From: a virus | Direction: 5' to 3' (one strand) | IMG/VR virus record: IMGVR_UViG_3300011013_000035 | Location: 1 to 38,991 of that record | DNA: 38,991 nt | Part shown: in pieces, positions 1 to 29,200 of the stretch | How the letters are laid out: each line of letters starts with the position of its first letter | Numbering within the stretch: position 1 is the first letter of the stretch | Notes under the pieces: generated by a model | Told to the model about the DNA's origin: nothing | Databases searched by the model: none | What the model saw: only the letters and a program-made list of their open reading frames with translations | Translations under genes and position numbers: made by a program

Positions 1-330
1 ACCGAGCAGGAGAACAAGCCAAAGCCTTCTTTAATCCCGCTTGATATTTGTCTTGAATTTGATGAACCGGCGTACCAGGAAGGCTTGATAAAATATTATC
101 GGGAGAGTTGGCGTAAAGGGTTCCCAATTTCAGAAATGTTTGATGCCACTATTCGGCATTTAAAACAATTTTTTTATGAAAGGCAGGACTATGATCCTGA
201 TGCTGAAAAGCTGGGTATTAAAAAACATCACCTGGCGGCTGCAAGGTTCTGTATTGCTTGCATGTTGCAAACGTTGAGAGATCATCCGGAAATGGATGAT
301 AGGGCGGAGTTGTTCAGGGGGAAAGAATGA
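1..330 (+). CDS. dATP/dGTP diphosphohydrolase-like protein, C-terminal part (5' end outside window)
   Basis: The reading frame is open from the first base, so the true start lies upstream; the first start-like codon inside the window is a TTG at 85 and should not be taken as the start. The visible 109 residues carry the pattern of the phage dATP/dGTP diphosphohydrolase N-terminal-type family (formerly DUF5664): a short YYRESWRKGFP stretch, then FDATIRHLKQFF, then a second helix with HHLAAARFC. The conserved histidines and the RHL pair are the features I rely on. Members are thought to remove pyrophosphate from purine dNTPs and so adjust the nucleotide pool during infection. Its stop overlaps the next gene by an ATGA junction, so it is the upstream member of a small plus-strand operon. 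Family assignment is from remembered consensus and is moderately sure; the substrate is unknown. Confidence 0.6.
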   Translation, partial: TEQENKPKPSLIPLDICLEFDEPAYQEGLIKYYRESWRKGFPISEMFDATIRHLKQFFYERQDYDPDAEKLGIKKHHLAAARFCIACMLQTLRDHPEMDDRAELFRGKE

Positions 331-473
331 AAAAAGATTGTGCGCATTGTGGAAAGTTAAGAACAGGCCGGTGTAAGGATGCTGATAAATGCGTTGAACA
401 CGGGTACTCAAGTTGGGCGGAGGATCGCAGGAAGAAAGAACGAAGACAAAAAGAACGGAGGGTCGGAAAATGA
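327..473 (+). CDS. small Cys-rich (zinc-finger-like) protein, 48 aa
   Basis: This ORF starts with ATG at 327, overlapping the previous stop (ATGA), and ends in TGA at 471-473, itself overlapping the next ATG. A purine-rich GGGGAAAG stretch precedes the start. It has four cysteines, C5, C8, C16 and C22, in a CxxC-N7-C-N5-C layout, followed by a strongly basic tail rich in Arg, Lys and Glu. That pattern suggests a small metal-binding, possibly nucleic-acid-binding protein. I do not recognise a named family. The stop-start overlaps on both sides are the main evidence that it is translated. Confidence 0.55.
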   Translation: MKKDCAHCGKLRTGRCKDADKCVEHGYSSWAEDRRKKERRQKERRVGK

Positions 474-667
474 ACAAAGTTTTATTACAGGACATTGTTA
501 TCAAAGCCGGAACAGTCTTTAGGCCTGCCGCACCGTTCACCAGGCGGGCGGGAGTGGATAATTTCAGTTGCATTATAGGGTTAACGAACGATACATCCGG
601 TGAAGTTTGCTATTGCATTGATACAGGCGATCCTGAAATGAAGGAATGGTTTAAAGATGAAAAATAA
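470..667 (+). CDS. hypothetical protein, 65 aa
   Basis: I place the start at ATG 470, which overlaps the upstream stop as ATGA and has a GGAGG site at 457-461. A longer in-frame start at 413 would run through the previous gene and lacks this support. The product begins MNKVLLQDIVIKAGT and ends in an acidic-basic tail. It looks like a small beta-rich protein with three cysteines and no membrane segment or signal peptide. It is the last plus-strand gene before the minus-strand cassette; a hairpin at 671-695 follows its stop. Function unknown. Confidence 0.6.
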   Translation: MNKVLLQDIVIKAGTVFRPAAPFTRRAGVDNFSCIIGLTNDTSGEVCYCIDTGDPEMKEWFKDEK

Positions 668-695
668 AAAGCCCGGAGTCGTATAAACTCCGGGC
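661..695 (-). terminator. intrinsic terminator of the minus-strand cassette
   Basis: A 9-bp perfect stem (GCCCGGAGT at 671-679 with ACTCCGGGC at 687-695) encloses a 7-nt loop. Read on the minus strand the hairpin is followed by TTTTTATTTT (670 to 661), the classic rho-independent form. It lies just past the stop of the minus-strand gene ending at 703. On the plus strand the hairpin is not followed by a T-run, though it could still slow transcription from the gene ending at 667. Confidence 0.85.
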
Positions 696-702
696 GATGG
701 TT

Positions 703-1155
703 TTAGACAGGGCTTATCAAGGGTTTGATATAGTCTTCGATGGTCAAGCCCTTAATGCCGTTCTGTTCCCAGAACCCTTTCAGCCAGATTTCCAAAATGG
801 CCCGTTCTGGGATTGAAAGCGTTTTCATTTTTTCTATCAGAGCTGGGCCGTTAGTCTCATAGCAGGTATCAAGGCTATCAAGTGCAATGCCGTCTTCCAC
901 GGAGGGTAAGAGTTGCTGCCCTGCGATGCTTGGTGTAAGTATTGTACCGTTTGCTACGTTAAGCATGAGATAAAGATCCTCGGGTGTAAACAGGCCCTTG
1001 ATCTTAAGTAATGTTTGCCTGTAAAGGTTCCTGAATGATTCAACTATGTAACTTGCCGCACCGCTGGGATTTGGCTTGCCAGCTCCTTTTTTGAAAAGAG
1101 TTCCTAAAAGTTCGAGGGACCCGGGACTGATTTGTATTCCTGTTTTTTTTAGCAT
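703..1155 (-). CDS. hypothetical protein of the minus-strand cassette, 150 aa
   Basis: Last gene of the minus-strand trio. The start ATG (1153-1155) has an AGAGGAG site 5 bases upstream and overlaps the end of the preceding gene by 7 nt, so the two are translationally coupled. The product is mostly helical. Its middle part, FTPEDLYLMLNVANGT, resembles a short motif seen in various small phage and plasmid proteins (an FxxxELxxLLDALNGT type). I know of no function for that motif. There is no signal peptide or membrane segment. A terminator lies directly downstream. Confidence 0.65.
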   Translation of the reverse strand: MLKKTGIQISPGSLELLGTLFKKGAGKPNPSGAASYIVESFRNLYRQTLLKIKGLFTPEDLYLMLNVANGTILTPSIAGQQLLPSVEDGIALDSLDTCYETNGPALIEKMKTLSIPERAILEIWLKGFWEQNGIKGLTIEDYIKPLISPV

Positions 1156-1370
1156 GGTTTCTCCTCTTTGGTTCGTGGTGGTTCATACCCAAAATTGCCA
1201 GCCTTACAAAAAGCTTTTAATTCTGCGGGGGTCGTGGGGGTTGTAGTTGAACTGGTTACGTTCTCCCACTGTGGGGTTTGTGCATATAGAGCTTTGCGTT
1301 CTATACATCCACCGTTGTTCCGCCATTCTGTTTTTCCATCATCTGAAAGTTGAACTCCTAAATTTTTCAT
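1149..1370 (-). CDS. hypothetical protein of the minus-strand cassette, 73 aa
   Basis: Middle gene of the minus-strand trio. The start ATG is at 1368-1370, with GGAG 8 bases upstream. Another ATG at 1377 is closer to the GGAG but in a frame that closes after a few codons. The product has three cysteines, several tryptophans, a Thr/Ser/Pro-rich middle and a basic C-terminus. I do not recognise it. Gene overlap with the downstream 150-aa gene and the shared promoter and terminator support that it is real. Confidence 0.55.
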   Translation of the reverse strand: MKNLGVQLSDDGKTEWRNNGGCIERKALYAQTPQWENVTSSTTTPTTPAELKAFCKAGNFGYEPPRTKEEKPC

Positions 1371-1415
1371 TTTTCATTCTCCTTTTTTATGCCCCGGTTG
1401 CCAGGGGCGGTTAGG

Positions 1416-1658
1416 TTAGTTTGAAGCTGTTTCTTCTTCGTAAAGGGCTATGGCTTCCTCACGGCTCAGGCCGAACTCTTCACGAACTGCCCAGATGAAG
1501 CCCTCTTTCCCTAACTTTAGAGAGTTTCTAACGATTCTCTCTTTGAGCTCGTAAGTTAATCTACAAAACTCAAGAAAGTCTTCCTCGCTTTGAACTATTA
1601 GGCTCCTGACGAGCCGGGTTGGCGTGGGTGGGATGTTTTCAAAAAAAATCATTTTCAT
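1416..1658 (-). CDS. hypothetical protein of the minus-strand cassette, 80 aa
   Basis: First gene of the minus-strand cassette. I choose ATG at 1656-1658, with AAAAAAGGAG five to six bases upstream. The longer frame that would begin at 1709 starts upstream of the predicted transcription start (-10 at 1701-1706), so it is unlikely. The product, beginning MKMIFFENIPP, is acidic and helical, with a C-terminal FGLSREEAIALYEEE that looks like a small UBA-like or helix-turn-helix-like turn. No family recognised. Confidence 0.6.
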   Translation of the reverse strand: MKMIFFENIPPTPTRLVRSLIVQSEEDFLEFCRLTYELKERIVRNSLKLGKEGFIWAVREEFGLSREEAIALYEEETASN

Positions 1659-1700
1659 GTCTCCTTTTTTTAGGTTTCTGTTTTCCCTTCCATGCTTATT

Positions 1701-1728
1701 AAGATACACCTTTTATTTTACTTGTCAA
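1701..1728 (-). promoter_or_regulatory. sigma70-like promoter for the minus-strand cassette
   Basis: On the minus strand, a perfect TTGACA (1723-1728) is followed after 16 bp by TATCTT (1701-1706), a 4/6 match to the -10 consensus. Transcription would begin near 1694, just ahead of the ribosome site and ATG at 1658. This placement supports the shorter start of the first cassette gene and gives the cassette independent expression against the direction of the late genes. Confidence 0.6.
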
Positions 1729-1810: not shown

Positions 1811-1840
1811 TTGACAAAAAAGTAAAATTCATGGTATTAT
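1811..1840 (+). promoter_or_regulatory. sigma70-like promoter for the plus-strand late module
   Basis: A perfect TTGACA at 1811-1816 is followed after 18 bp by TATTAT at 1835-1840 (5/6 match). It faces the zinc-ribbon and terminase genes. The -10 overlaps a short palindrome (1836-1847) that could be a repressor site. No other plus-strand promoter of similar quality was seen close to terS. Confidence 0.6.
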
Positions 1841-1993: not shown

Positions 1994-2197
1994 ATGAACT
2001 GCCCCTTTTGCGGAAATGAAAAAACTCGTGTAATTTCAACAACTTCATGGCTTGAGCGGGAAATATTGAGAGTCCGCCTCTGTTGTAAATGCAAGGGAGT
2101 TTTTAAAACAGTTGAAGCGATAGATCAAGATACAATCAAAATAATACATATAATGCAAAGAGAGAAGAGAAATGAACGAGAAGCCGCTTACAGTTAA
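1994..2197 (+). CDS. small zinc-ribbon protein, 67 aa, NrdR/Ogr-like in appearance
   Basis: The product starts MNCPFCGNEKTRV and has a second Cys cluster LCCKCKGVFKT around residues 29-38, so a CxxC...CxxC zinc ribbon is clear. The arrangement, with a TxV/V-T stretch after the first pair and a hydrophobic-Thr stretch after the second, resembles the zinc ribbon of NrdR and the phage Ogr/Delta late activators. It is first in the late transcription unit, directly ahead of terS, where a DNA-binding regulator or packaging accessory would fit. Its 3' end overlaps terS by 26 nt. Upstream GAAGAG is a weak ribosome site. Zinc binding is well supported; the regulatory role is inferred. Confidence 0.65.
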   Translation: MNCPFCGNEKTRVISTTSWLEREILRVRLCCKCKGVFKTVEAIDQDTIKIIHIMQREKRNEREAAYS

Positions 2198-2624
2198 GCA
2201 ACAGCGATTCGTTGATTTTTTTGATGGAAATGCAACAGACGCGGCGAGAAAAGCAGGTTATAAAAGCGCAGAACTAAGCGGGCTTCGGAATATAAGGAAT
2301 GTTAGGATAGCAAAGGCTATCAAAAAACGAGAGAAAAAACGCAATAGAAAAAAGATAGCAACAAGAGAAGAAAGACAACAACTCTGGACCGAATTTGCAC
2401 GAAACGAAGACGTTGCAATCAGAGATAGGTTAAAAGCGCTGGAACTACTAGGAAGATCAGAATGCGATTTTATCGACAAGAAGGAAATCACCGGTGCAAA
2501 CGGTGGGCCGATTCAAACTCAAACAGAAGTCATCGAAATCCTTCTATCAACCGTGGACGGCGCAACTCGGGGCCTTGCAAACAATGAGCAAAAGCAGATC
2601 GAGCATAAGAAAGAGAAGGCTTAG
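2172..2624 (+). CDS. terS: terminase small subunit (Terminase_2 type)
   Basis: The N-terminus, LTVKQQRFVDFF followed by NATDAARKAGY, is the characteristic helix-turn-helix start of Terminase_2 small subunits, which recognise the packaging site on phage DNA and load the large subunit. The middle is very basic (KREKKRNRKK, about residues 51-60), then comes a helical segment and a flexible, Gln/Glu/Lys-rich tail. At 150 aa it is normal for the family. It begins inside the end of the upstream zinc-ribbon gene and lies 183 bp upstream of terL. Confidence 0.9.
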   Translation: MNEKPLTVKQQRFVDFFDGNATDAARKAGYKSAELSGLRNIRNVRIAKAIKKREKKRNRKKIATREERQQLWTEFARNEDVAIRDRLKALELLGRSECDFIDKKEITGANGGPIQTQTEVIEILLSTVDGATRGLANNEQKQIEHKKEKA

Positions 2625-2807: not shown

Positions 2808-4331
2808 ATGGCAACAAAGCGTTTTACATCTGATGCCCAGGCAAGAAAGGAGTTTAAGCGTTGTTTTTCAGATAAGAGATGGCGGTTAAATCATCTTTAT
2901 TATATAATAGATGATGCAGGGCAAAGAGTTCTTTTCCAGCTGAACGCAGCGCAACAATACCTACTTAACAACCTCCATACACAAAATTTAATCTTAAAAT
3001 CCCGTCAGTTGGGGTTCACAACCTTTATTGATCTGTACTTTTTAGATGAGTGTTTATTCAACTCAGATGTTGAAGCTGGCATTATCGCTCATAACAGAGA
3101 TGATGCAGGAAAGATATTTAGGAGAAAAATTCTCTATCCTTACGAAAATCTTCCAGAATGGCTATTAGCTGTCAGATCGTCGAAGTCAAAGTCAAAATCA
3201 GAATTAGAGTTGAGTAACGGGTCCATCGTCACAGTAGGCACCTCGTTCAGGTCAGGAACGGCACAACTCCTGCATATCAGCGAGTTTGGCAAGGTATGCG
3301 CCAGGTTCCCCGAAAAGGCCCGGGAAATTGTTACGGGTGCTCTTGAAGCGATCCACACCGAGACTGGTGAATGCTTGCTATTCGTAGAGTCAACCGCAGA
3401 AGGCAAGGCCGGATATTTTTATGATTATTGTAAAGAAGCCAGAGCCCTCAAAGAGTTAGGCAGAAAACCATCCAATTTAGATTTCAAGTTTCATTTCTTT
3501 CCCTGGTTCCAAAATCCTAAGAACACAATTGAAGAAGGCTTACCGATTCCACAAAAGTTTATTGAGTATTTTCAAGGACTTGAAACTTCTCTGGGAATTG
3601 TTCTCAAGCCTGAACAACGTTATTGGTATGTCCGTAAACACAACCGTCTCGGCGACGATATGAAGCGGGAACATCCGTCAACACCTGATGAAGCGTTTGA
3701 CCAGGCGATCCAAGGCGCTTATTTCAAGAAGCAATTTCAGAAAGCCCGGGAAGAAAAGCGAATTTGTTCGGTTCCTGTTGAGTCGGGGGTGGGAGTTTCA
3801 ACCTGGTGGGACCTGGGGATGAACGACGTGATGGCGATCTGGTTTACTCAGGATGTAGGTAGGGAAATACACGTGATCGACTATCTTGAAGACTCAGGAG
3901 AAGGGTTTGAATACTACAGAGGCCTGCTTGATGAAAGGGGATACAGATACCTTAATCATAACGCACCTCATGATATCTCAGTAAGAGAATTAGGAACAGG
4001 CGTATCAAGGTGGGAGTCAGCCTGGAAATTAGGAATTAGCTTCAACAGAATACCCCGGGTAAAAGCCAAAATTGATTCAGTTAATGCAGCCAGGCAAATA
4101 TTTCAAATTTGTTGGTTTGATGAAAGTAAGTGTTCAGAAGGTTTAAACCGTCTCGAAAACTACCGTAAAAAATGGAATGAACACAGTAATTCATACGAAG
4201 ATAAACCTTTGCATGATGATAATTCAAACGGGGCGGATGCATTTCAAACACTCGCGATGGGGCACAGCTTTCATATGCCAGGGACAGCGCCAATTCAAGC
4301 TAAACCTAAAAATACACAAGGATGGACATAA
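2808..4331 (+). CDS. terL: terminase large subunit
   Basis: This is the ATP-driven DNA packaging motor and headful nuclease. The N-terminal ATPase has an adenine-binding-type region before a Walker A-like KSRQLGFTT (about K64-T72), an acidic Walker B-like LLHISEF with E159, and a coupling motif ESTAEG beginning at E194. The C-terminal RNase H-like nuclease shows TWWDLGMND with D335, and HDDNSNGADA near residues 469-478 with D470, D471 and D477 as candidate metal ligands. At 507 aa it has normal length. AAGGAA precedes the ATG. Its stop overlaps the portal start. Atypical Walker residues are usual in phage terminases. Confidence 0.93.
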   Translation: MATKRFTSDAQARKEFKRCFSDKRWRLNHLYYIIDDAGQRVLFQLNAAQQYLLNNLHTQNLILKSRQLGFTTFIDLYFLDECLFNSDVEAGIIAHNRDDAGKIFRRKILYPYENLPEWLLAVRSSKSKSKSELELSNGSIVTVGTSFRSGTAQLLHISEFGKVCARFPEKAREIVTGALEAIHTETGECLLFVESTAEGKAGYFYDYCKEARALKELGRKPSNLDFKFHFFPWFQNPKNTIEEGLPIPQKFIEYFQGLETSLGIVLKPEQRYWYVRKHNRLGDDMKREHPSTPDEAFDQAIQGAYFKKQFQKAREEKRICSVPVESGVGVSTWWDLGMNDVMAIWFTQDVGREIHVIDYLEDSGEGFEYYRGLLDERGYRYLNHNAPHDISVRELGTGVSRWESAWKLGISFNRIPRVKAKIDSVNAARQIFQICWFDESKCSEGLNRLENYRKKWNEHSNSYEDKPLHDDNSNGADAFQTLAMGHSFHMPGTAPIQAKPKNTQGWT

Positions 4332-6817: not shown

Positions 6818-7071
6818 GACTAATTCCTATTAAAGTAGAGGATCAGAAGTTATGCAGATCACTTCATGCAATCAAGGTCCAGTCAAATACGGAGGAAACG
6901 TCAGATGCAAAAGCAATGTTTGACTGGCTTGAGAACTCTCTTGAGGCGTTACGTATTCAAAACGATACCTTGTCAGGGTCTGAATTAACACGGAACCAAG
7001 GAGCCTGCCAAGTTTTACAGTCATTCTTTGATGCATTTGGAACAGCCCAGGATATTTTAAGCAAAAATTAA
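6814..7071 (+). CDS. hypothetical protein, 85 aa
   Basis: It starts in an ATGA overlap with the previous gene and has GGAGGG five bases upstream. It is predicted mainly helical and acidic, with no signal peptide or membrane segment. No family recognised. A 141-bp untranslated gap with a promoter candidate follows it, separating it from the scaffold gene. Confidence 0.65.
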   Translation: MRLIPIKVEDQKLCRSLHAIKVQSNTEETSDAKAMFDWLENSLEALRIQNDTLSGSELTRNQGACQVLQSFFDAFGTAQDILSKN

Positions 7072-7100
7072 GTATATACAGCTATTTAGTGTTGATTTTG

Positions 7101-7129
7101 TTGCAACGCTATATTCGCAAGAATAAAAT
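7101..7129 (+). promoter_or_regulatory. candidate promoter upstream of scaffold and capsid
   Basis: TTGCAA at 7101-7106 (4/6 to consensus) is followed after 17 bp by TAAAAT at 7124-7129 (5/6). It sits in a gap of about 140 bp in otherwise packed DNA and would feed scaffold and capsid, the products needed in highest amount. The only strong terminator of this module follows the capsid gene, which would make scaffold-capsid its own transcript. A TTGC...GCAA dyad (7101-7120) overlaps it. Untested inference. Confidence 0.4.
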
Positions 7130-7212
7130 CACAATTGTCGAGGACACCTCATTGTGAGGCCCACCTAAAACTCAAAATAGCGACACCCGGAAACGGACCG
7201 CAAAGGAAACTT

Positions 7213-8091
7213 ATGATACCAGAAAGTGTAAAAGCTGCGGCAGAAAGAGCAGAGGCTTTAATAAAAGCACAGGGAACCCCGCCAGAAGACGGCAATAAGC
7301 CCGAGCAGGACACCCCTACCCCCGAGGCCACAGACCAAAAGCCTGCAACCCAAGATGACCAAGCAGACGATTTTGAAGCAAAGTACAAAACCCTACAGGG
7401 AAAATACAATGCCGAAATACCACGCTTGAATCAACAAATTCGGACACTGCAAGAGCAACTCCAAGCACTTGAAGAACAAACCAATAACCAAGGTCCGGAT
7501 GAACCCGACTACACCATTGACCCCGAGAGTTTAAGCGAATACGGCGAAGAGTTTGGAACGCTTGCAAAGCAAATAAACCAACTTGCCGCTGAAAACAAAA
7601 CGCTTAAAGAACAGCTCGGCACAGTAGAGAAGACACAAGGTGAGACCGCCTACGAATGGTATATTAATTCTGTTGCGATGAAATTAAAAGAGAATGGAAA
7701 AGACTTTAATAAAATGAACTCTGATCCTGACTTTTTAACATGGCTACAGGAAGTACACCCATTTACAGGCAGGCCACGGCATGAGTCACTACAAGCCGCT
7801 GAAAGGGCAATGGATGTAGGCCAAACCATGCGGATTTTTAAAGAATATCTGGGTACGGCTAACCCAACGCAGGAGGCTAAACCTCCGCCAAACGTACAGC
7901 CCAGCTATAACAATCCAGGTTCAGATACAAAACCACCCATACCGGGCTCACAAGGCCGGATATGGACACGGGCAGATATCCAAAAACTTTACAAGGATAA
8001 AACAGCAGGGCTTTACCGAGGCAAAGATGCAGAGTTTAAGGCGATTGAAGCAGATATGTTCGCAGCTCAAAGGGAAGGTCGTATCCGGTAG
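7213..8091 (+). CDS. capsid assembly scaffolding protein
   Basis: I start it at ATG 7213, which has AAAGGAAAC upstream. The longer frame from TTG 7135 lacks a ribosome site and adds an unlikely basic N-terminus. The 292-aa product is acidic and highly charged, with a Pro/Gln/Asp-rich N-terminal third, a long coiled coil (FEAKYKTLQGKYN onward, about residues 56-95 and again around 125-150), a Pro/Gly-rich linker, and a basic helical C-terminus ending in AAQREGRIR. That design, and the place directly before the capsid gene, are those of internal scaffolds, which usually bind the coat protein through the C-terminal helices. Confidence 0.8.
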   Translation: MIPESVKAAAERAEALIKAQGTPPEDGNKPEQDTPTPEATDQKPATQDDQADDFEAKYKTLQGKYNAEIPRLNQQIRTLQEQLQALEEQTNNQGPDEPDYTIDPESLSEYGEEFGTLAKQINQLAAENKTLKEQLGTVEKTQGETAYEWYINSVAMKLKENGKDFNKMNSDPDFLTWLQEVHPFTGRPRHESLQAAERAMDVGQTMRIFKEYLGTANPTQEAKPPPNVQPSYNNPGSDTKPPIPGSQGRIWTRADIQKLYKDKTAGLYRGKDAEFKAIEADMFAAQREGRIR

Positions 8092-8102
8092 AGGTACGAA
8101 AA

Positions 8103-9047
8103 ATGGCTTATCCAATTGATTCAAGTATTTCAGGCACCTATACAGGTTTGTCTGGAAATTATATACCGGAAATATGGTCAGGGAAGCTCCTTGAAAAGTT
8201 TTATACGGCAACTGTTTTCGCCGCTGTCTCTAATACAGACTACGCTGGAGAAATTACGAAATTTGGCGATAAAGTAATTATAAGGACTATCCCGAATATG
8301 GTCATCAGTGACTATAAAATCGGTAAAGACCTTGTGTACGATCGCCCAGTTGGCGGCACTATCGAGCTGTTAATCGACAAGGGCAAGAGTTATTCCTTCG
8401 CGATAAACTCTGTTGAGCGGAAACAGGCCGATATTAATTATATCGACAAGTGGTCCGAAGATGCCAGCGAGCAGATGAAAATAACAATTGATTCTGATAT
8501 TCTGGCAGATATACCATCAGACGCAGCCCCCGCCAATACAGAGGGCACAGCCGGTTTGATTTCTGGGAATGTTGATCTTGGTACTGCAAACACAGATGGG
8601 TCAACTGCCGTTGGCCTGACAAAAGATACCATCGTTGATAAAATGATGGAATGCGGGCAGGTTCTTGACGAGCAGAACGTCCCTGAAAACAACAGATGGT
8701 TCATCCTCCCTGCCTGGGCTTGTACCAGGGTAAAAATATCCCCTCTCAAGGATGCGTCACTTTCTGGAGACGGAACATCTATGCTCAGAAACGGTCGGCT
8801 TGGTGGAATTGATCGGTTCACCGTTTACAGTTCCAATAATATTACCCCCGTTACAGAAGGGGCCGTGAAGTGTTATAAATTGATGTTCGGGCACAAATCA
8901 GCCCTCACCTTTGCTTCACAGCTTACAGAGAATGGCATTATTGATAATCCCAACGATTTTGGCAAATTAATGCGTGGTCTCCAGGTATATGGATACAAAG
9001 TTATCCATCCGGAATCCCTTGGCACTCTGTATGCTAAAGCAGCATAA
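8103..9047 (+). CDS. major capsid protein (HK97-fold, inferred)
   Basis: The 314-aa product follows the scaffold and has the usual capsid features: an N-terminal helix with YIPEIWSGKLLEKFY, a long beta-rich E-loop-like section (about residues 45-80), a spine-helix-like VERKQADINYIDKWSEDASEQM, a Gly/Ala/Thr-rich insertion near 140-165, and a C-terminal part ending GYKVIHPESLGTLYAK, typical of coats in P22-like and T7-like phages. GAGG upstream provides the ribosome site. A strong terminator follows. The fold is inferred from these features and position. Confidence 0.85.
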   Translation: MAYPIDSSISGTYTGLSGNYIPEIWSGKLLEKFYTATVFAAVSNTDYAGEITKFGDKVIIRTIPNMVISDYKIGKDLVYDRPVGGTIELLIDKGKSYSFAINSVERKQADINYIDKWSEDASEQMKITIDSDILADIPSDAAPANTEGTAGLISGNVDLGTANTDGSTAVGLTKDTIVDKMMECGQVLDEQNVPENNRWFILPAWACTRVKISPLKDASLSGDGTSMLRNGRLGGIDRFTVYSSNNITPVTEGAVKCYKLMFGHKSALTFASQLTENGIIDNPNDFGKLMRGLQVYGYKVIHPESLGTLYAKAA

Positions 9048-18563: not shown

Positions 18564-20290
18564 ATGAAATTCGACGTTCAAGCCGCTTTAAATGCTGGTG
18601 CAACAGACGATCAGATAGCCAAGTTCGTATGCAACAAGACTGGATATGACTATAAGGCCATGAAAGCGAAGGGCTATAACCCTGTAGATATATATCAAAC
18701 TATTCTCAACCAAGACAAGCCGGCTAAACCGTCTCAACCCAAAAAGGAAGATAACCGCTGGGGGATCACAAAGGCTGCTTCAAAAACCATAGACCAATTA
18801 GAAGGCGCAGGGTACACAGCTCTTCAAAACATTGGAGATATGACTGGCAGCGATAGTCTTAAAGCCTTTGGGGAAGCAGGCGCTAAAAATCATGAAGTTG
18901 TTAATGGGGAACTTGACACAACACCTATTGATTTTGGAAAAGGCAACTCTTCACAGACCGCTTTTGACATTAATTTTGCCCCTGCCAATACACCCGATAC
19001 AGCACCTATTGATTTTGGAAAAGGGAACTCCACGCTTCACCGGAACGAACCCCGTCAACAAGGAGAGGCTACCCCGACAATAAGCCAATGGCAGCCGTCC
19101 TTCCTTGAAAGAATGGCAGGGGAAGCAGAGATTGGCGCATACAAAAAAGCGATTGATTTTAACAAAATGATCGGATTAGGCAACTTTAAAGCAACGAAAG
19201 ACATTTTCGTAGACGATCCGACTAAAACTGTTGAAATGCTAAGCAAACGATATGGGGCAAAAACATGGGTGGGAAAACAGGTTGACTCTTTCGTGCAAAG
19301 CGCAGCGTCTCTCCCTATCGACATAGGTTCAGCGGCGCTAACGGGTGGAGCGGCTAAAGTTGCAACCGCTTCGACCGCTGTTGCAGATTGGCTCAGTGGA
19401 GTATCAAACTTTGTCTTAGGCTCTGGAATACAAGGCGCTGTCAAAGGCTATGAGAAAAACGGCATTATGGGTGCGTTAACTGGTGGGACAGAAGGGTCTG
19501 TTTTTGCCCGTGCCTATGAAATGAACCCGGCAGGAATAAAAGACAGCATTGCGAAAGCAGCCTCAAAAGATTTAGGTAAATTTGTTGCTATAGGCGTTGG
19601 GCAAACATATTACAATGCAGCCAAACAAGGCAGAATCCCCACAGCGCAAGAAGTAAATAATTCTGTAGTGCAGTCAGCGGCAATGAGTGCGGCGTTTATA
19701 ACCTTACCTTTTATTGAAAAAGCTACAAAAATTCCAGGAGACAAGATTGCAATAGGCTTACTTAACCGTCGGCTGAATAAAGCGTTTTCCAGTAATAATA
19801 TGGAAGAAGCTCAGGAAGCTATGAACAAGTTTTTTAAAGGAACAAATGTCAGTGATCAAGCCAAACAAGAAGTATTCGATGTTATGGCTAAGGCTAATGG
19901 GCCCGCTAAGGAGGACTCAACCCAGAAACAAAACCTGTTCAACGATAACGAAGATCAAAACGCAGAACCAGCGAATAGACCTGTAGCGCTTGGCGGAAGT
20001 GCGACTTCTAAAGATATCGAAAATAATGTAAAAGACTCGATTACGGCTCTCGGCGGGAGTGAAATTCCACCTGAACAGCCTATAACGGACAATCAAGAAC
20101 CGCAAGAGCAGACGGCACCCGTTCCACCTGAAACCAGCCCTGACCAGGGCCAACTTGGAGTAGAAGGAAAGAAGGAGAACTCAACAGAGACACAACCTGC
20201 CCCAGAGCAAGGGCAATCACCAGCAGAAGCGCTACCTGCCGGTTTAACTCCGGACATACCCCAGGGGACGCCCGCTGTAGCGCCAGTCCC
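18564..20290 (+). other. N-terminal region of the giant protein: two TPIDFGKGN repeats and a hydrophobic Gly/Ala zone
   Basis: The first 50 residues look like a small helical domain (DDQIAKFVCNKTGYD). After a polar linker come two copies of PIDFGKGNS, 27 residues apart. Residues about 239-319 are unusually rich in Gly, Ala, Ser and small hydrophobics (IDIGSAALTGGAAKVATAS, FVLGSGIQGAVKG, GIMGALTGGTEG), which suits membrane or channel association. Thereafter, up to about residue 575, the sequence is a Pro/Gln/Glu-rich flexible linker. Confidence 0.5.
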
Positions 20291-23200
20291 CCAGGATAAC
20301 TTAACCCCAGGCACTAAAATAACGTACAAAACAAAAAAAGGAGAAGATACCGGTACAATTATCAAAACCCACCCAACAAAACCGACCATGGTTTATATCA
20401 AAAAGTCGGATGGCAACAAGACGTACGTGTTTAAAAAAAGTATTTTAGGGGTTGAGCCTGGACCGAAAGTATCCGGCACCGAAGGGGCTGGCAAAGCTTC
20501 TCCGACTCCATTAGAAATAGTAAACACACCGGCAGAAGAACTTTATAAAAAATATCCCGAATACGGTAAAGAAGTAAAGGCAGAACAAGAAAAGGAGCAG
20601 GCTAAAAATAAAGCCAAGAGTGAAGCTGCTCGAAAAATAGACTCAGCAGTAAAGACCCTAAAAAATGAGATATTAGATTGGTCAAATAGAAAATACAAAA
20701 AGAATGACACAATGGTTTCAGCGGGCGGGATAAAAGATGACCTAAATGCGGGAACAACATCTATTAGCGCCGCTAATGAAAAAAGACGGAAAAGAAATAT
20801 CCAAGACAGGAAACGGTCTATACTCGAACTTGAGAAAATAAAAAAACGCCTTGAGAACGGTGAAGATGAACAAAAGTTATACGGTGAGTTATTAGACTCA
20901 AAATACGCCCCACTGGTTGATTTTGCTGAAAAGCAGCTTTCCGGTAAAAAGACTGTAGCCAAAGAGACCACAAAACCACAGACAAAGTCAAGTGAGAAAG
21001 AAGACAAAAAAAGACAAGCAACTATCAAAAAGATACGAACTTTTGCAACAAAGCTAAAAAAGAGTAACGAAGAAAAATATAATCAAGACAGAGAAGAAAA
21101 CACCCCTCGCAGAGCACAGATGGCCTCAAACGCACGGGCTGACGCCTCGCATGGTATCCAAGTCGCTAAGACTATGCTTAACATTGCAGACTTGCTTGAG
21201 TCCGGATACACCGGTCCTCTTGAGAAAGTCAAAACAGCAACACATGTAAAGGCCCTTGAGTCGGCCTTGCACCTTGCGCAATACGAGACCTGGAAAAAGC
21301 AAGGGCTTTCTTATGGAGAACAACAGCAAAGAAAAGGTGAACCGTTTTCCGCAGAAGATGTAAAGCATCTTAAATTTGATAGTTCAATTAGTCTCCCTGA
21401 AGGCGGGGTGAACACACTTAGAAAAGATTTAAGAAAACACTCTGGCGGTAAAAAGCTTGCATCGAAAATTCACGGGACGGAATTGAGCCCTGATCTTGCA
21501 AAAAGCTTGGTTGCTTTTGAGAAAAAAATAAAGGGGAAGGGAACACGGTTTTCTTTACCGGGGACAGTTGAAGACCAGTTGAAAGACTACAACCGCTATA
21601 AGGCAATGGGTGTTAGCAATTCAACTGAACTTAAAGCCCTTGCAAGAGAGTACATCAAGGTTCGGGAAGGCGGAATAAAAGAAGACCCCGTGAAGGAAGC
21701 TGAACGGAAACTTATCGGTACAAAACCAGGCGTCGATTTTTTCCCAACACCTAAAACAATTGCCAATGTTTTAGTCAAGCGGGCAGATATTCAAAAAGAT
21801 GATAAGGTCTTAGAACCATCAGCCGGGAAAGGTGACATTGCAGATGTTATCAAAGAAAAGCACCCTGATAGCAAGCTTGATACGGTTGAGTTAAGTCCTA
21901 CTCTTAACGAAATTCTTAAGCTTAAAAAGCATAACGTCACTGGTAGCGACTTCCTTGAGCATACAGGCGAGTATGATAAGATTATAATGAACCCGCCTTT
22001 TTCAAAGGGCATGGACGTTGACCATGTAATGCACGCTTATTCACTATTAAAGCCAGGCGGCAAAATTGTTGCCATTATGAGCGAGCATCCATTCTTCGCA
22101 AGTGATAAAAAATCTATTGCTTTTAGAGAGTGGCTTTCTGATAAGGGGACCTCTGAAAAACTACCTGAAAAATCATTTACCGGTAAAGAGGCGTTTAGGC
22201 AGACCGGCGTTAATTCAAGAGTTGTAGAAATTAAAAAACCAAACGAAGGGAAGACAGAGACACCCAAACAAGCGGCCCAACCCGAAGAGAAACGTACATA
22301 CAAACCTCGGACATGGTTTAAGCTTGGAGAAGAGGTCTCATGGGCATACAAGGACAAAACCGGAAAGAGTTCTCCGTTAAAACCGAATAAAGAAGTCTTG
22401 AAAGAGACAGCACAAAAACTTGGCATCACTGTAGCAGACGCAGAACGTGGACTTTCTGTGTATCATTCTGGCGATCCTTCATATGATGAAAATCTTTTTA
22501 AGGATAAAAAAATACCGATAGTAAGCGTTCCGAAACCGGACGCCCACGGGGAATTAAAACCGAAGCAGCCCAACAAGGCAGAGCAAAAAGCAAAAAAAGC
22601 CCCCCAGGGGGAAGAAGGCACCTCGTATCTATCTGATGGTACTCCTATTAAATTCAAATATGAGGTTGTTGACTTACCCGATCTTGTCCAATCACACGAT
22701 GTCAATGGAACACCGAACCCAGACTACACCGAAGGCAAACAGCCACGTGACCGCAGCAAAGAAGCTTATCTTTTACAAACCGATAAGTACGCTGCCAACC
22801 TCGCACCAGAGGCGCACTTAGGCAAAAGCCCTAATTTTGCGACGGGTGCACCCTTGGTATCCCCGGATAGTAACGAAATTGAAGCAGGCCATGGAAGAAC
22901 GCAAGCAATAACCAAAGCGTATAATAACCCTAACAACAACAAAGGGGCAGAATACAAAAAATGGGTAGAAACGAATGCTGCCAAATACGGGATAAAACTT
23001 GATGGAAAAATATCCCATCCTGTTTTGATCAGGCGGAGGATAACGCCTGTCGATGATATTAAAGCAATCACAGAGGGATCAAACGACTCAATAACCGCAC
23101 AGATGTCAGCCACGGAGCAAGCAAGGGTCGACTCCGGCAACCTAACGTCAAATGATTTGTCTTTGTTTAGACCGGATAATGACGGTAACATAAACGCGGC

Positions 23201-26200
23201 AAGTAACAGGCCTTTTGTTTCACGCTTTCTTAAAAAAATGACGGTTGAAGAGCAGGTCCATTATGTAGGCAAAAATGGTGAAATCACAAAACAGCTTGTA
23301 GATCGTATTCAAGCGGCAATCTTTCAGAAAGCCTATGGGTCTGATGAATTATCAGGGATGGCAACCGAAGACGCAAACCCAGATATCAAAAATATTCTAA
23401 ACGGGATGACAGCAGGTGCGGTCGATTTTGCAAAAGCAAGAGGATTAAATGGAAAAGTTGCAGACCCGATCATAAAAGATATTGTGGATGGGGTTTTATA
23501 TCTCAGGCAAGCTCAGAAAGAATACCCGGATTTAAAAGCAGGCAAGAACGCTACGAGGGCGCAGACGCAATTAGCACAAGCCTTAGCTCAACAGGATATG
23601 TTTAATGCTAAAGTTCCAAAAGAAGTGGAACAAGTTGCTTCCTTTCTTGCAGATAATATCAGGAGCGGAAAGCGTATAGGAGAGTTTTTATCTTCTGTAG
23701 GGCATTACCTTAAAAAAGGTATTGCAGACTTGAAACAAATGGACGCTTTTGGTACAAAGGATACATTAAACTCTCGTTCTTTAATTGACACAGCTTTACA
23801 ACAACTTGAGGATAAATACGATGACAAGCAACAAGACCTCTTCAGCAGACAAGCTATCGAAGAGCCAAAAGCAGCGTTTTATGGACTTGATAATGAAACA
23901 AGCGATAAAAAAGGCGAACCAGAAGAAGATTCCAAACGAAGCGCCGTTGAAACCCCCGATAAAGTAAAGGAGCCTCAAAATGGCAAAGCCAGACAACTTG
24001 ATTTATTTGAATTTCAAGCCGAAGAACTCCAAAAAGTTAAAATCCCAGGGAAGTTACAGGCAAAACAAAAAGTATCAACTACCCGTGTTGGAAGAACTAA
24101 TCTTGCCAAAGACGGCTACATCATACAAAGCCCGCAAGATGCGGCCTCGTTCTTAGCCCACCTCGTTTTAGAGCCTCAAGAAAACGCTTATTTTGTAGCT
24201 TTGGATAAAAATGGTAAGGTCCTCGAAGTTGTCCGGCATACTGTTGGGACCAGAGGGCAAAGCTTAATAGACCCTATTGCAGCAGTGACTCCGTCCTTCC
24301 GATTTAAGAACATAGACAAAATTGTCTTTGCGCATAATCATCCTTCTGGTGATATGGAGGCCTCTTCCTCCGACAAAAATATTCTTTCCAAAATAAAACA
24401 AATAGCTTCTCTTAAGAATATAGACATCCTGCCTCTTATTGTTGGGGATTCAGAGTTCATTGTTTTTAATGAACAGGGTGATACGTCAAAAGTAACCCCG
24501 ATTAAAAATACAATCAAAAAAGAGGATATACCCTTAAGCGAACGTATTTTTAGAAAACGGGTTAAAAAAACTGACAAACAAATCATGAACCACAAAGACG
24601 CCCAGAATAGATTGGAAAAGGAAGAAGACGGCTTTTTGCTTCTTAATTCAAGGAATCAAGAAACTGGTTTTTTACCCTTCCCCTCCGGGATGTCTCAAAA
24701 AGAGATCACTGCAAGAGTTTTAGAAGCAGTTGAAAAAACAAACGCTACTTCGATTCTGATTAATAATAAACCCCCTAAAAATGCCTCTGGCAGGTTATTG
24801 TTCTTAAAAAAACTTTCAGATGCTTTATTGAAAAATGATGTTAAAGTTTTTGATATTTTTTCATACACAAAAACCGGGACTGTAGTAAATGATCCGCAGG
24901 ACCTTACCCGAGACGCACAGTATAACATCGAGGACTTGAACAAGGACGATGTTCAATACCAAGTGGCTTACCATGCGTCGCCTTTTACCTGGGAAGCAGA
25001 GCCAGGGTTTCCATATGGCCGGCCAAGATTAGATAAAATCTTTAGCAAAGAAACTGTCGGAGAGGGGGCATGGGTTTTTGGAGCGGGGTGGTACTCAGGA
25101 GAATCGAAAGATGCCATTAGAAGCTATCTAAAGAGGTGGCAAGGTGATTCTTTTAGTGTCAATGGTGTTGACTATAAGGTCACAACGGAAGGCATCATTG
25201 ATGTAGAAACAAATGAAAAGCTGAAGGGCTTAGAAGATGATACTATACATTCACTGGTTGCTAACGATTTCGATAGAGAAGCAGCGATCGAAGACTTAAA
25301 ATATAGGTACAGAAATGACAAAAATACGGATATAACTTCAGCCGTTAACCTGATTAAGAATGCTTATATAAAAAATGCCGCATCTCTATACAAACTTGAT
25401 ATCCCAGACGAAATTATCCCGCACCTTTTGGATTGGGATGAACCTTTCTCTGAACAAACTGAATATGTTAAAAAAGCACTCCAACCATTAATGGAATATT
25501 TAAAAAGTACCGGTAGGTATTCTGATGATGTTTTGGACTCTTTATGGGGTGAGCAACTTTATGGTGCTGCCTCAGAGTTTGTTATAAACAAAGGGACCCC
25601 GGACTCGAACGATGAAGATATAGTGTCATCAAGATACTTAGCTTCGGTAGGCATCCCAGGCGACAAATATTTAGATGGGGAAAGTAGAAATCTTCAACGG
25701 ATAGCCCTTCGGGATGACCCTCTCTTAAAAGCACAAATGGAGAAAGACAAGAAAGAAATATTAGAAATAAAAAAGGAACTTGAAGATAACAAAAATAATA
25801 GTAATCTTCTCCCGCATTTTTTTGAATCACGGAAGGAGCGGATAGCTCTCTTAAACAGACAGATTCTTTCTACAAAGAGAACATTAGAGGCATCAAAAAG
25901 AGGGGATGGCCTCACCTACAATTATGTCCTCTGGAATCAGAAAGTAATTGATCAAACAGTTTTATTGAAACGTAATGAAAAAATTTTGGAAAGAGTTTCT
26001 TCTCAAAAAAAACAAGCAGGAATCACTGCCCCGGTAACCCTCCAAAAAGTAAAATCTTATTTCAAGTCCCTTAACCTTAAAACCGGGGTCACCCCGGAAG
26101 GCCATGTATGGGTAAGATCAAAGTCCGGTCTTGGCTTCACCGTAGAGACGGTCAAACGCTTTTCGGACAAAGAATACGAAGTTGCCATAAACTCAGGGGC

Positions 26201-29200
26201 TATGAAATCAGATGGGCACATTGCCGGGCAATTAATTGGTCACAAAATTAAAATCTCTTCTGATTTTGGAGACGAACAAACGCTTATCCATGAGGTGATC
26301 CACCTTATGGAGAAGGCAGGCATATTTTCTAAGTTAGACCTATCAGTGCTTGACACTGGGCTAAAGAACCGCACAGGGCTTGCTAAAGACGATAAAATTA
26401 CCCTAAGTAAGGACTCCAGAGAAAACAGGGCCAACTACCTGTCAAAGGTGCTTGCCAACCGTAAAATGGACAGGAGCACGCCTCTTGGCCGTGTTGTCCA
26501 AAAGGTTGCGGACTTCATGGATGCGTTACGCAATACAGTAAAAGCAATAGTGACTGGCGAGAAACAGTCAAGCGTCCGTAAACTTGCAAAGGGCATAGAG
26601 ACAGGGGATATTTATAATCGAGAGGGCAAACCAAATACAAGCGCAAACTCACAGTATGAAACCACCGCAGACATGTGGTATTCCCAGATGGAGAACTTTC
26701 TTAGTCAAAAGCTTAATAATGGAAACGCGGAAACAATCAAAAGTCAGCTTCAAAGCTGGGCCAAAAAGGGAAAATTTAAGCAGGAAGAGCTTGAATGGTC
26801 AGGCGTTATGGATTGGTTGAATGATCAGAAGGGTAAAGTTAAGAAGCAGGATGTTCTTGACTTTCTGAATAAAAACCGAGTTCAGATTAAAGAAGTTATG
26901 AGGGGAGCAGATAAATATTCAAAAGAGTTAAAAGCTTTGTCAGATAGGCAATACAACGGGGAAACGCTATCTGAAGAGGAGTTAAACAGATACAGAGAGC
27001 TTTCGAGAAAAGAGACTAAAAAAGATACTAAATTCTCAGAATACACCGAACCAGGCGGAAAGAATTACCGTGAATTGCTGTTGACGTTGCCAACTCCTAT
27101 AAACAAGGGGCAGGAACAATTCAAAGCGTTCCAAGCAAAGATGGAGGAGAAATATGGCGTTTCCGGCGTAGCTATCTGGGACAAAATGAACGATAAAGAG
27201 ACGGCAGAGTTAGACAGGCTTGATAAGGCAGCCTCTGAAACAGCCGCTAATAACTACAAATCCCCCCACTGGGACGAACCCAACACATTTGTAACTGCCA
27301 GGATGTCAGACTATACAGATAGAGACGGAAACAAGGTTCTGGTCCTTCATGAGATGCAGGACGATTGGGCTTCGGATATTCGAAAGAAGGGGGTCAAGAA
27401 AGATTTAACGTATTCTCACAAAAAAGATCCAGAGATGGGTGGATGGTCAGTTTATGATTCAGAAGGTAATAAAGTTTCCGTAAACTCATACCCTACAGAA
27501 AGTGGGGCTATAGAGGCCGCCAAGACTTGGCGGAATGTCCACGGTGCCCCTGGGATTCCAGACTATCCCTTCAAAAACACTTCCTACGACTTAATGCTTC
27601 GTCGTCTTGTAAGATACGCAGCAGAGAACGGATACGATAAGATTGCTTGGTTCCCAGGCAGTACCCACACCAAACGGTGGGGGTCTGAAAAGATTGCTTG
27701 GGAAAAAACAAAGGATGGCTGGGAAGTAGAAGTCAAAGAGCAAGTCTCTGGTCATGCTGGAAATATCGCCGACATAGAAGCTGCCGCCCGTGAAAAAGGT
27801 ATCCTTCTTGAAGAGACCGTCACTGTTAGAAATAAAGCTGAATTAAAAGAAGCTATCCGCACCATAGCCAGGCGGGAAGAAAACTCTTTTTCCAAAGAAA
27901 ACTTTGAAAAGATGTTGGAAGCCAGAACAAATAAAATCTGGGCTCGGATGCAAAAAGAAAACTCCGGAGTGTCTTTCCCACGTAAAGAAAGCTTTGAAAA
28001 CATTTATGATGAACAATTAGTAAATAAAGCCAACAAGTTTTTCAATAAAAAGAAATGGGGTAAAGCGAAAGTCGGGGAAACAGAAATAAAAAAAGGACCC
28101 GAGTTTAAAATAGAAAAAAACGGAAATTTTTATTCTGTGACTGACCCAGATGGCAATATAGTAGTGAAGAATACCACCAAAGAAAAGGCCGAACAATTTT
28201 TGCGCAAACCCATAAAAATTCACACCCTGTCAATAACTCCCCAGATGAAAAAAAAAGCCCTACGGGAAGGAATGCCGCTTTACCAGACCAAACACAGCAA
28301 TGAAACGAATGACAAATACAAAGATTCCGTCTCGACAATAAGCCACGTAATAGACCTGCCGGAGATAGTTGAGCTTGCCAAAGATTTACAGAATGGAAAG
28401 AACCTTAAACTTGTCAACGTCTTGAGAGCAGCCGGGGGTAAAGCTAATGGATCTTTTTCCCCTAATGGAGACGGATCTATCAAAGTTGTCAGGTCTCTTT
28501 TTGAAGACACAGACCAAACCAAAAAAGAAATTGCGTATAATATCGGCAAGATCGTAGACTATTTACCTGACAAAACGCTTGCCCGTGGGAATATTTTGGG
28601 TAGTATTGCTTCTCTTAAAAAATACATGAAGCATACCATCAGCGCATCACCTGACATTCCATCCGAGCTAACACCAAAAGATAGAATACGGCTAAAGCGG
28701 GAAGCCAATAAATTGGTTTCCAAGGAAAAAGACACTTGGATTGATGAAGTTGTCACAAAAAGAATCCCTGTAAAGCCTAAAGATATTCTTGGTATTTGGA
28801 ATAGTTTAGAAGACTCAAAACTGCTTAATAAAAACCTATACGATTATATAGCCAGCCTGAACACTGCTCAGAAAAAAGCGGTTATATCAGCAGCTCTAAG
28901 GGGTGTGGTGAAAGATGATCTTCAACGTTTTTCTGAAATAGTAAACGAGCCTACCGGAAAGAAAATTAAACAAACGCTTTCCGATGAAGAGTTTAAGAAA
29001 AGAGTATCTAAAAAATACGCTGACCTTATCAATAAAGAATTATCAAAACGAAAAATGTTTAGCTTAGAGCAGACAATGAACGAATTGAAAGCGTTTTCCG
29101 AAACCTGGAAGCCATTCGACCCAGCCGCTAACTTTAAGGTCACCAATTATAGATTCTCTCCACGTGAGTTGTATGCTGATGCTTTTAGCGGCCTTGTGAA

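Follow-up and report, generated by a model that had tools for sequence, protein, structure and literature searches.

A probable moron cassette in a variable slot beside the terminase operon of a phage of sulphate-reducing bacteria

Three small minus-strand genes, here called A, B and C, lie with a promoter and a terminator of their own between an upstream operon and the operon encoding a zinc-ribbon protein and the two terminase subunits (positions 661 to 1728). We consider it likely that they form a moron cassette, and that this cassette occupies a cargo hotspot in a temperate-type lineage of Desulfobacterota phages. That the cassette and the hotspot are real seems very likely. The window, meaning the whole stretch of DNA analysed, is a complete IMG/VR record, linear and 38,991 bases long, from which the phage's own early region is missing. 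The plus strand carries every recognised gene apart from these three. They encode, among others, the zinc ribbon, the small and large terminase subunits (terS and terL), a portal, a major head protein, an internal virion protein and a protein of 4,407 residues. The original prediction, of a minus-strand cassette inside a plus-strand genome, is thus correct in this respect. The features of the region are as follows.

327 to 473, plus strand: left-flank gene for a short Cys-containing protein; the last conserved gene ahead of the hotspot
661 to 695, minus strand: intrinsic terminator of the cassette (stem 695 to 671, T-rich tail 670 to 661)
703 to 1155, minus strand: gene C, 150 aa, sharing 7 nt with B; family in phages and chromosomes
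1149 to 1370, minus strand: gene B, 73 aa, orphan; AGGAG-type Shine-Dalgarno site
1416 to 1658, minus strand: gene A, 80 aa, orphan; GGAG Shine-Dalgarno site
1701 to 1728, minus strand: σ70-like promoter of the cassette (TTGACA 1728 to 1723, 16 nt, TATCTT 1706 to 1701)
1811 to 1840, plus strand: promoter-like site divergent from that of the cassette and directed towards the terminase operon (TTGACA-18-TATTAT, P = 0.0035)
1994 to 2197, plus strand: right-flank gene for an NrdR-type zinc-ribbon protein (Pfam PF22811, E = 4e-9)
2172 to 2624, plus strand: terminase small subunit (PF03592, E = 1.5e-13)
2808 to 4331, plus strand: terminase large subunit (phrog_2, E = 9e-26)

The 4,407-residue protein is encoded by a single open reading frame (18564 to 31787) with MTS methyltransferase, ddrB-ParB and RadC domains. 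This giant polyvalent protein accounts for one third of the window. A search of Rfam found no RNA in the window.

Signals and genes of the cassette

The cassette promoter matches the consensus at 10 of 12 positions. It had been described as perfect. This holds for the −35 element, TTGACA, but not for the −10 element, TATCTT, which matches at only 4 of 6 positions behind a 16 nt spacer. Across 4 kb there were 5 promoter-like matches, compared with 6.1 expected from shuffled sequences. Since this is no excess, the promoter alone is weak proof. In the 130 nt that precede gene A, by contrast, a match of this quality has a probability of 0.008 in dinucleotide shuffles. No other perfect minus-strand TTGACA in the window is accompanied by a −10 element of at least 4/6. 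Promoters in the equivalent position were found in two relatives, L004 (P = 0.001) and L002 (P = 0.0025), again by comparison with shuffles. In the window, the cassette promoter and the plus-strand site at 1811 to 1840 occupy one AT-rich gap.

The terminator stem has 10 pairs and is followed by TTTTTATTTTTC, read from position 670 downwards. At −18 to −19.5 kcal/mol it is the most stable terminator on the minus strand of the window, and the intrinsic terminator first described is thus borne out as a sequence signal. The terminators of all three cassettes (window, L004 and L002) have P values below 0.01, and no shuffle equalled that of the window. The cassette terminator is convergent with a plus-strand gene that ends at 667. 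We regard the recurrence of promoter and terminator in relatives with other cargo as a stronger argument than the window by itself.

The genes are coupled or closely spaced, as first described: A runs from 1658 to 1416, B from 1370 to 1149 and C from 1155 to 703. Each has a Shine-Dalgarno site, with motif lengths of 4, 6 and 5 for A, B and C. The annotated frame had the best coding score of the six for all three genes, though weakly for A. Homologues of A and B were not found in PHROGs, Pfam, NCBIfam, PADLOC or IMG/VR, and A also lacked relatives among annotated phages and in 86 genomes from the family to which one host MAG belongs. The single-sequence model of A (pLDDT 80) has three helices, at residues 25–47, 51–62 and 66–79. 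A structural search with this model gave no significant match; homeodomain-like entries appeared at E values of 3 to 9. The model can be read as helix-turn-helix-like, and A is a candidate regulator of the cassette.

A variable slot upstream of the terminase genes

With terL as the query, we found relatives in 16 viral contigs and in two contigs of bacterial MAGs (Desulfobacterium and Desulfobacula). The window phage is a phage of sulphate-reducing bacteria and its relatives are phages of Desulfobacterota. Both of the MAG-borne relatives encode CI-like repressors and, hence, the lineage is probably temperate. A small gene and an ATPase-like gene (assigned by eye) adjoin the repressor of the Desulfobacula phage, L019 (L065, 16931 to 18760). 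This is possibly an additional accessory or defence pair.

The landmarks of the slot are the left-flank gene and the zinc-ribbon gene, and relatives were matched by terminase and flanks. The left-flank gene has direct-match homologues in L004, L008 and L019; those in L006, L007 and L018 were reached via the L004 homologue. The zinc-ribbon gene is the first of the terminase operon and is conserved in L002–L008, L018 and L019. Its product has an NrdR-type ribbon without the remainder of NrdR, and is a candidate late regulator. The nearest relatives, L002 and L003 (terL 77% and 76%, respectively), do not have the left flank of the window, so that the comparison with empty slots rests on less close relatives.

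L006, L007 and L008 have an empty slot, with little beyond a terminator and a short gap. L018 has no minus-strand cassette, just a short plus-strand frame. The comparison that had been suggested as a check thus finds the cassette absent from these relatives in the manner of a clean insertion. In L004, the slot contains one minus-strand gene with its own promoter (TTGACA-17-TATTAT) and terminator. L002 has three minus-strand genes with promoter and terminator, despite its different left flank, and the middle gene is homologous to the L004 cargo gene (55–56% identity). In L019, the cargo is on the plus strand: a c-di-GMP-I riboswitch (RF01051, 48.7 bits) ahead of a gene for a PEP-CTERM protein. 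The riboswitch of this Desulfobacula MAG phage directly precedes the gene (7858 to 8684), which suggests that the cargo may be under the control of a host second messenger. Synteny of A, B and C as core genes in relatives would speak against a moron. No such synteny was seen in the relatives compared, and L002, L004 and L019 hold other cargo.

Four relatives have a palindrome, imperfect in some, upstream of the zinc-ribbon gene.

Palindrome CCGTGGA-N-TCCACGG: L004, 5967 to 6000; L007, 240 to 270; L008, 1420 to 1450; L019, 9030 to 9060

This palindrome, possibly a late operator or a packaging site, was not found in the window or in L002. The cargo of L004 and L019 is placed between the upstream gene or operon and the palindrome. 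In L008, the palindrome nearly adjoins the upstream terminator. An operator common to the cassettes was not found: TGCACTTTTT elements are present in L004 and L002 and absent from the window. Hence, we do not claim a common regulator.

From these comparisons, we conclude that the contents of the slot before the zinc ribbon-terS-terL operon turn over, making it a cargo hotspot, and that A-B-C is one filling of it. The assignment to the morons, as an architectural class, is upheld by the variable presence of the cassette and by promoter and terminator signals that recur with unrelated cargo. Its absence from relatives suggests that the cassette may be dispensable for lytic growth.

The cargo family shared by L002 (5854 to 6174) and L004 (5502 to 5816), both on the minus strand, consists of small proteins with the sequence KIINGxRYDT and occurs at 101 places in viral contigs. 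A large terminase could be recognised at 15 of its loci. The family is counter-oriented to terL at 13 of the 15, and at 10 of the 15 it is divergent from terL, 0.16 to 2.1 kb away; these figures describe a trend and not a census, few terminase profiles having been used, and L002 and L004 are among the ten divergent loci, as are two near-duplicates.

Three other features of the relatives were observed. In L004 (6293 to 6946), with similar frames in L011, a GIY-YIG nuclease domain (PF22945) is joined to the start of the terS gene. A second terS-like frame is downstream of the L004 fusion, and the arrangement looks like the outcome of an invasion of terS by a homing endonuclease. L018 has a cluster of TTGCACTT repeats, five of them exact, in a likely noncoding stretch (7040 to 7310); the cluster is iteron- or operator-like. 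On the minus strand of L002 (826 to 5388) there is a lambda-type head module (portal, protease and capsid, assigned by eye), while a second set of terminase and portal genes is on the other strand. L002 is either a chimeric contig or two adjacent phages.

Gene C and its chromosomal relatives

As a single sequence, C had no match in IMG/VR, annotated phages or GTDB genomes (pattern scan). When 395 genomes were searched in six frames, three weak matches appeared, all in the same region. Via an alignment, phage copies of the C family were found in L027–L032 (24–38% identity). The phages that carry them are unrelated to the window phage. A broader profile detected a chromosomal copy in 115 of the 199 genomes of one order, which is the order of one of the three weak six-frame matches. 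We infer that this order is Desulfovibrio-type. A profile made from phage copies only also recovered the chromosomal copies, at E values of 6e-15 to 2e-20 and over positions 5–140 of 143. The relationship is thus independent of the weak initial matches. Because homologues exist, C is certainly coding.

The chromosomal homologues are proteins of ~140 aa, with ~20–25% identity to the C protein of the window. The latter differs from them by an insertion of six residues close to residue 25. A panD-like gene is downstream, on the same strand, at 16 of 30 chromosomal loci, with the panD-like identity shown by PF02261 for one locus. Neither C nor the chromosomal proteins related to it received a functional annotation. 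Membership of the family extends over nearly the whole length of the protein. The setting differs: the chromosomal genes are often upstream of panD, whereas C of the window is in a phage operon. Judged by sequence, C is the phage form of a protein conserved on the chromosomes of the Desulfovibrio-type order.

The position of the gene in other phages varies (gene identities by eye). In L031 and L032, the C homologue is upstream of the terminase genes and on the opposite strand, as in the window; the cargo family of L002 and L004 tends to be placed likewise. In L027–L030, the C homologue and the terminase share a strand and an opposing recombinase lies between them.

The model of C is all-helical (pLDDT 68, pTM 0.71) and Foldseek returned nothing significant (E = 1.8). 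The lone Pfam match, DUF1548, is noise (E = 0.23). In a second look at structural matches, the top three were AcrIE10 entries, with Z scores of 3.0–3.5 over 86–88 residues. We did not adopt this identity; a Z score below 4, for a helical model at pLDDT 68, is within noise. AcrIE10 was not listed when the C profile was compared with solved structures at E values up to 10. The model does not support C as a ribbon-helix-helix protein. The monomer model has helices at residues 11–20 and 30–40, without an N-terminal strand, and no match to a ribbon-helix-helix family was found in Pfam.

Function of the cassette and its place among accessory loci

By its architecture, the cassette matches the morons or accessory loci. 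The nearest positional parallel is the bor gene of lambda, which is counter-oriented beside the terminase genes. Like them, the cassette has promoter and terminator signals of its own, is absent from relatives and has no evident role in the lytic cycle. Its sequences are unrelated to those of known morons such as bor, as far as the searches go, and no lipoprotein signal was noted by eye in A, B or C.

What the cassette does can be considered in several ways. It may provide superinfection exclusion, or defence against other phages, and be expressed in the lysogen. Independent expression of prophage accessory loci in lysogens is documented (PMC7067206; PMC9928086), and loci expressed in this way frequently protect the lysogen (PMC7067206). 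Phages P2 and P4 have defence hotspots adjacent to cos (PMC9122126). The slot resembles these in being a fixed small locus beside packaging functions, with fast turnover between conserved genes. Conversely, the window phage is of a different type and the cargo is smaller. In PADLOC, neither the three genes nor the cargo of L002 and L004 matched a defence domain. The L019 cargo, a riboswitch-preceded gene for a surface-type PEP-CTERM protein, means that the slot is not solely for defence. We consider this role somewhat unlikely.

In an anti-defence operon, the products would be small inhibitors of host immunity that appear as soon as infection begins; an anti-CRISPR accompanied by a helix-turn-helix regulator is one example. 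Such operons usually consist of genes for small orphan proteins between a promoter and a terminator of their own. As in Acr-Aca operons, small orphan genes are here clustered behind their own promoter, and one of them may encode a helix-turn-helix protein. The two C-terminal helices of the A model, with the weak homeodomain-like matches, and the AcrIE10 entries at the top of the second look at C, point the same way. Against this, the structural matches of A and C are all non-significant, AcrIE10 is missing from the solved-structure profile search and no Acr or Aca sequence match was found. PADLOC, which covers defence rather than counter-defence, matches nothing. Furthermore, C has relatives that occur as single genes on the chromosome in most members of one order, which is not how an anti-CRISPR is distributed. 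We regard an anti-defence role as unlikely.

Two other explanations fare worse. A or C could repress or activate the 1811 promoter, by virtue of the divergent arrangement, and so regulate the late operon. The divergent promoter-like sites share one gap, A could bind DNA and the N-terminus of the C family can be read as ribbon-helix-helix. Yet L006, L007, L008 and L018 retain the late operon without the cassette, and the C model, with no N-terminal strand and no matching ribbon-helix-helix family, does not support that view of C; we think such regulation quite improbable. Finally, it is most improbable that C is the sole true gene and that A and B are chance frames since, despite their lack of homologues and the small coding score of A, both have well-placed Shine-Dalgarno sites and are consecutive between the promoter and C, and B scores best in its own frame of six.

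For the moron cassette, we envisage the following. Host RNA polymerase with σ70 would read the cassette irrespective of the late programme, both during lysogeny and from the onset of infection. Expression outside lytic growth is probable. The terminator would halt the antisense transcript ahead of the convergent upstream operon. B and C would be translationally coupled, and A may regulate the cassette. The products would target the host cell and not virion assembly. C, as the viral counterpart of a host protein, would replace that protein or compete for its partners. Action on the pathway of the host homologue is the function that we favour, tentatively, for C.

A broader proposal is that the strand opposite the terminase operon may be a general cargo slot of unrelated phages, with recurrent small families, and that C has been captured and reprogrammes the pathway of the host protein. 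We regard this as speculative and, on balance, doubtful. If true, capture of the C family would provide a handle on a conserved bacterial function and would be a new kind of phage mimicry.

Phages of sulphate-reducing bacteria, for which phage genetics is little developed, are thus seen to have a cargo hotspot. It accepts different, independently equipped genes, one of them behind a c-di-GMP riboswitch. Furthermore, an uncharacterised and widely conserved chromosomal family is tied to phages, and this makes phage-host conflict, or manipulation of the host, a testable route to its function.
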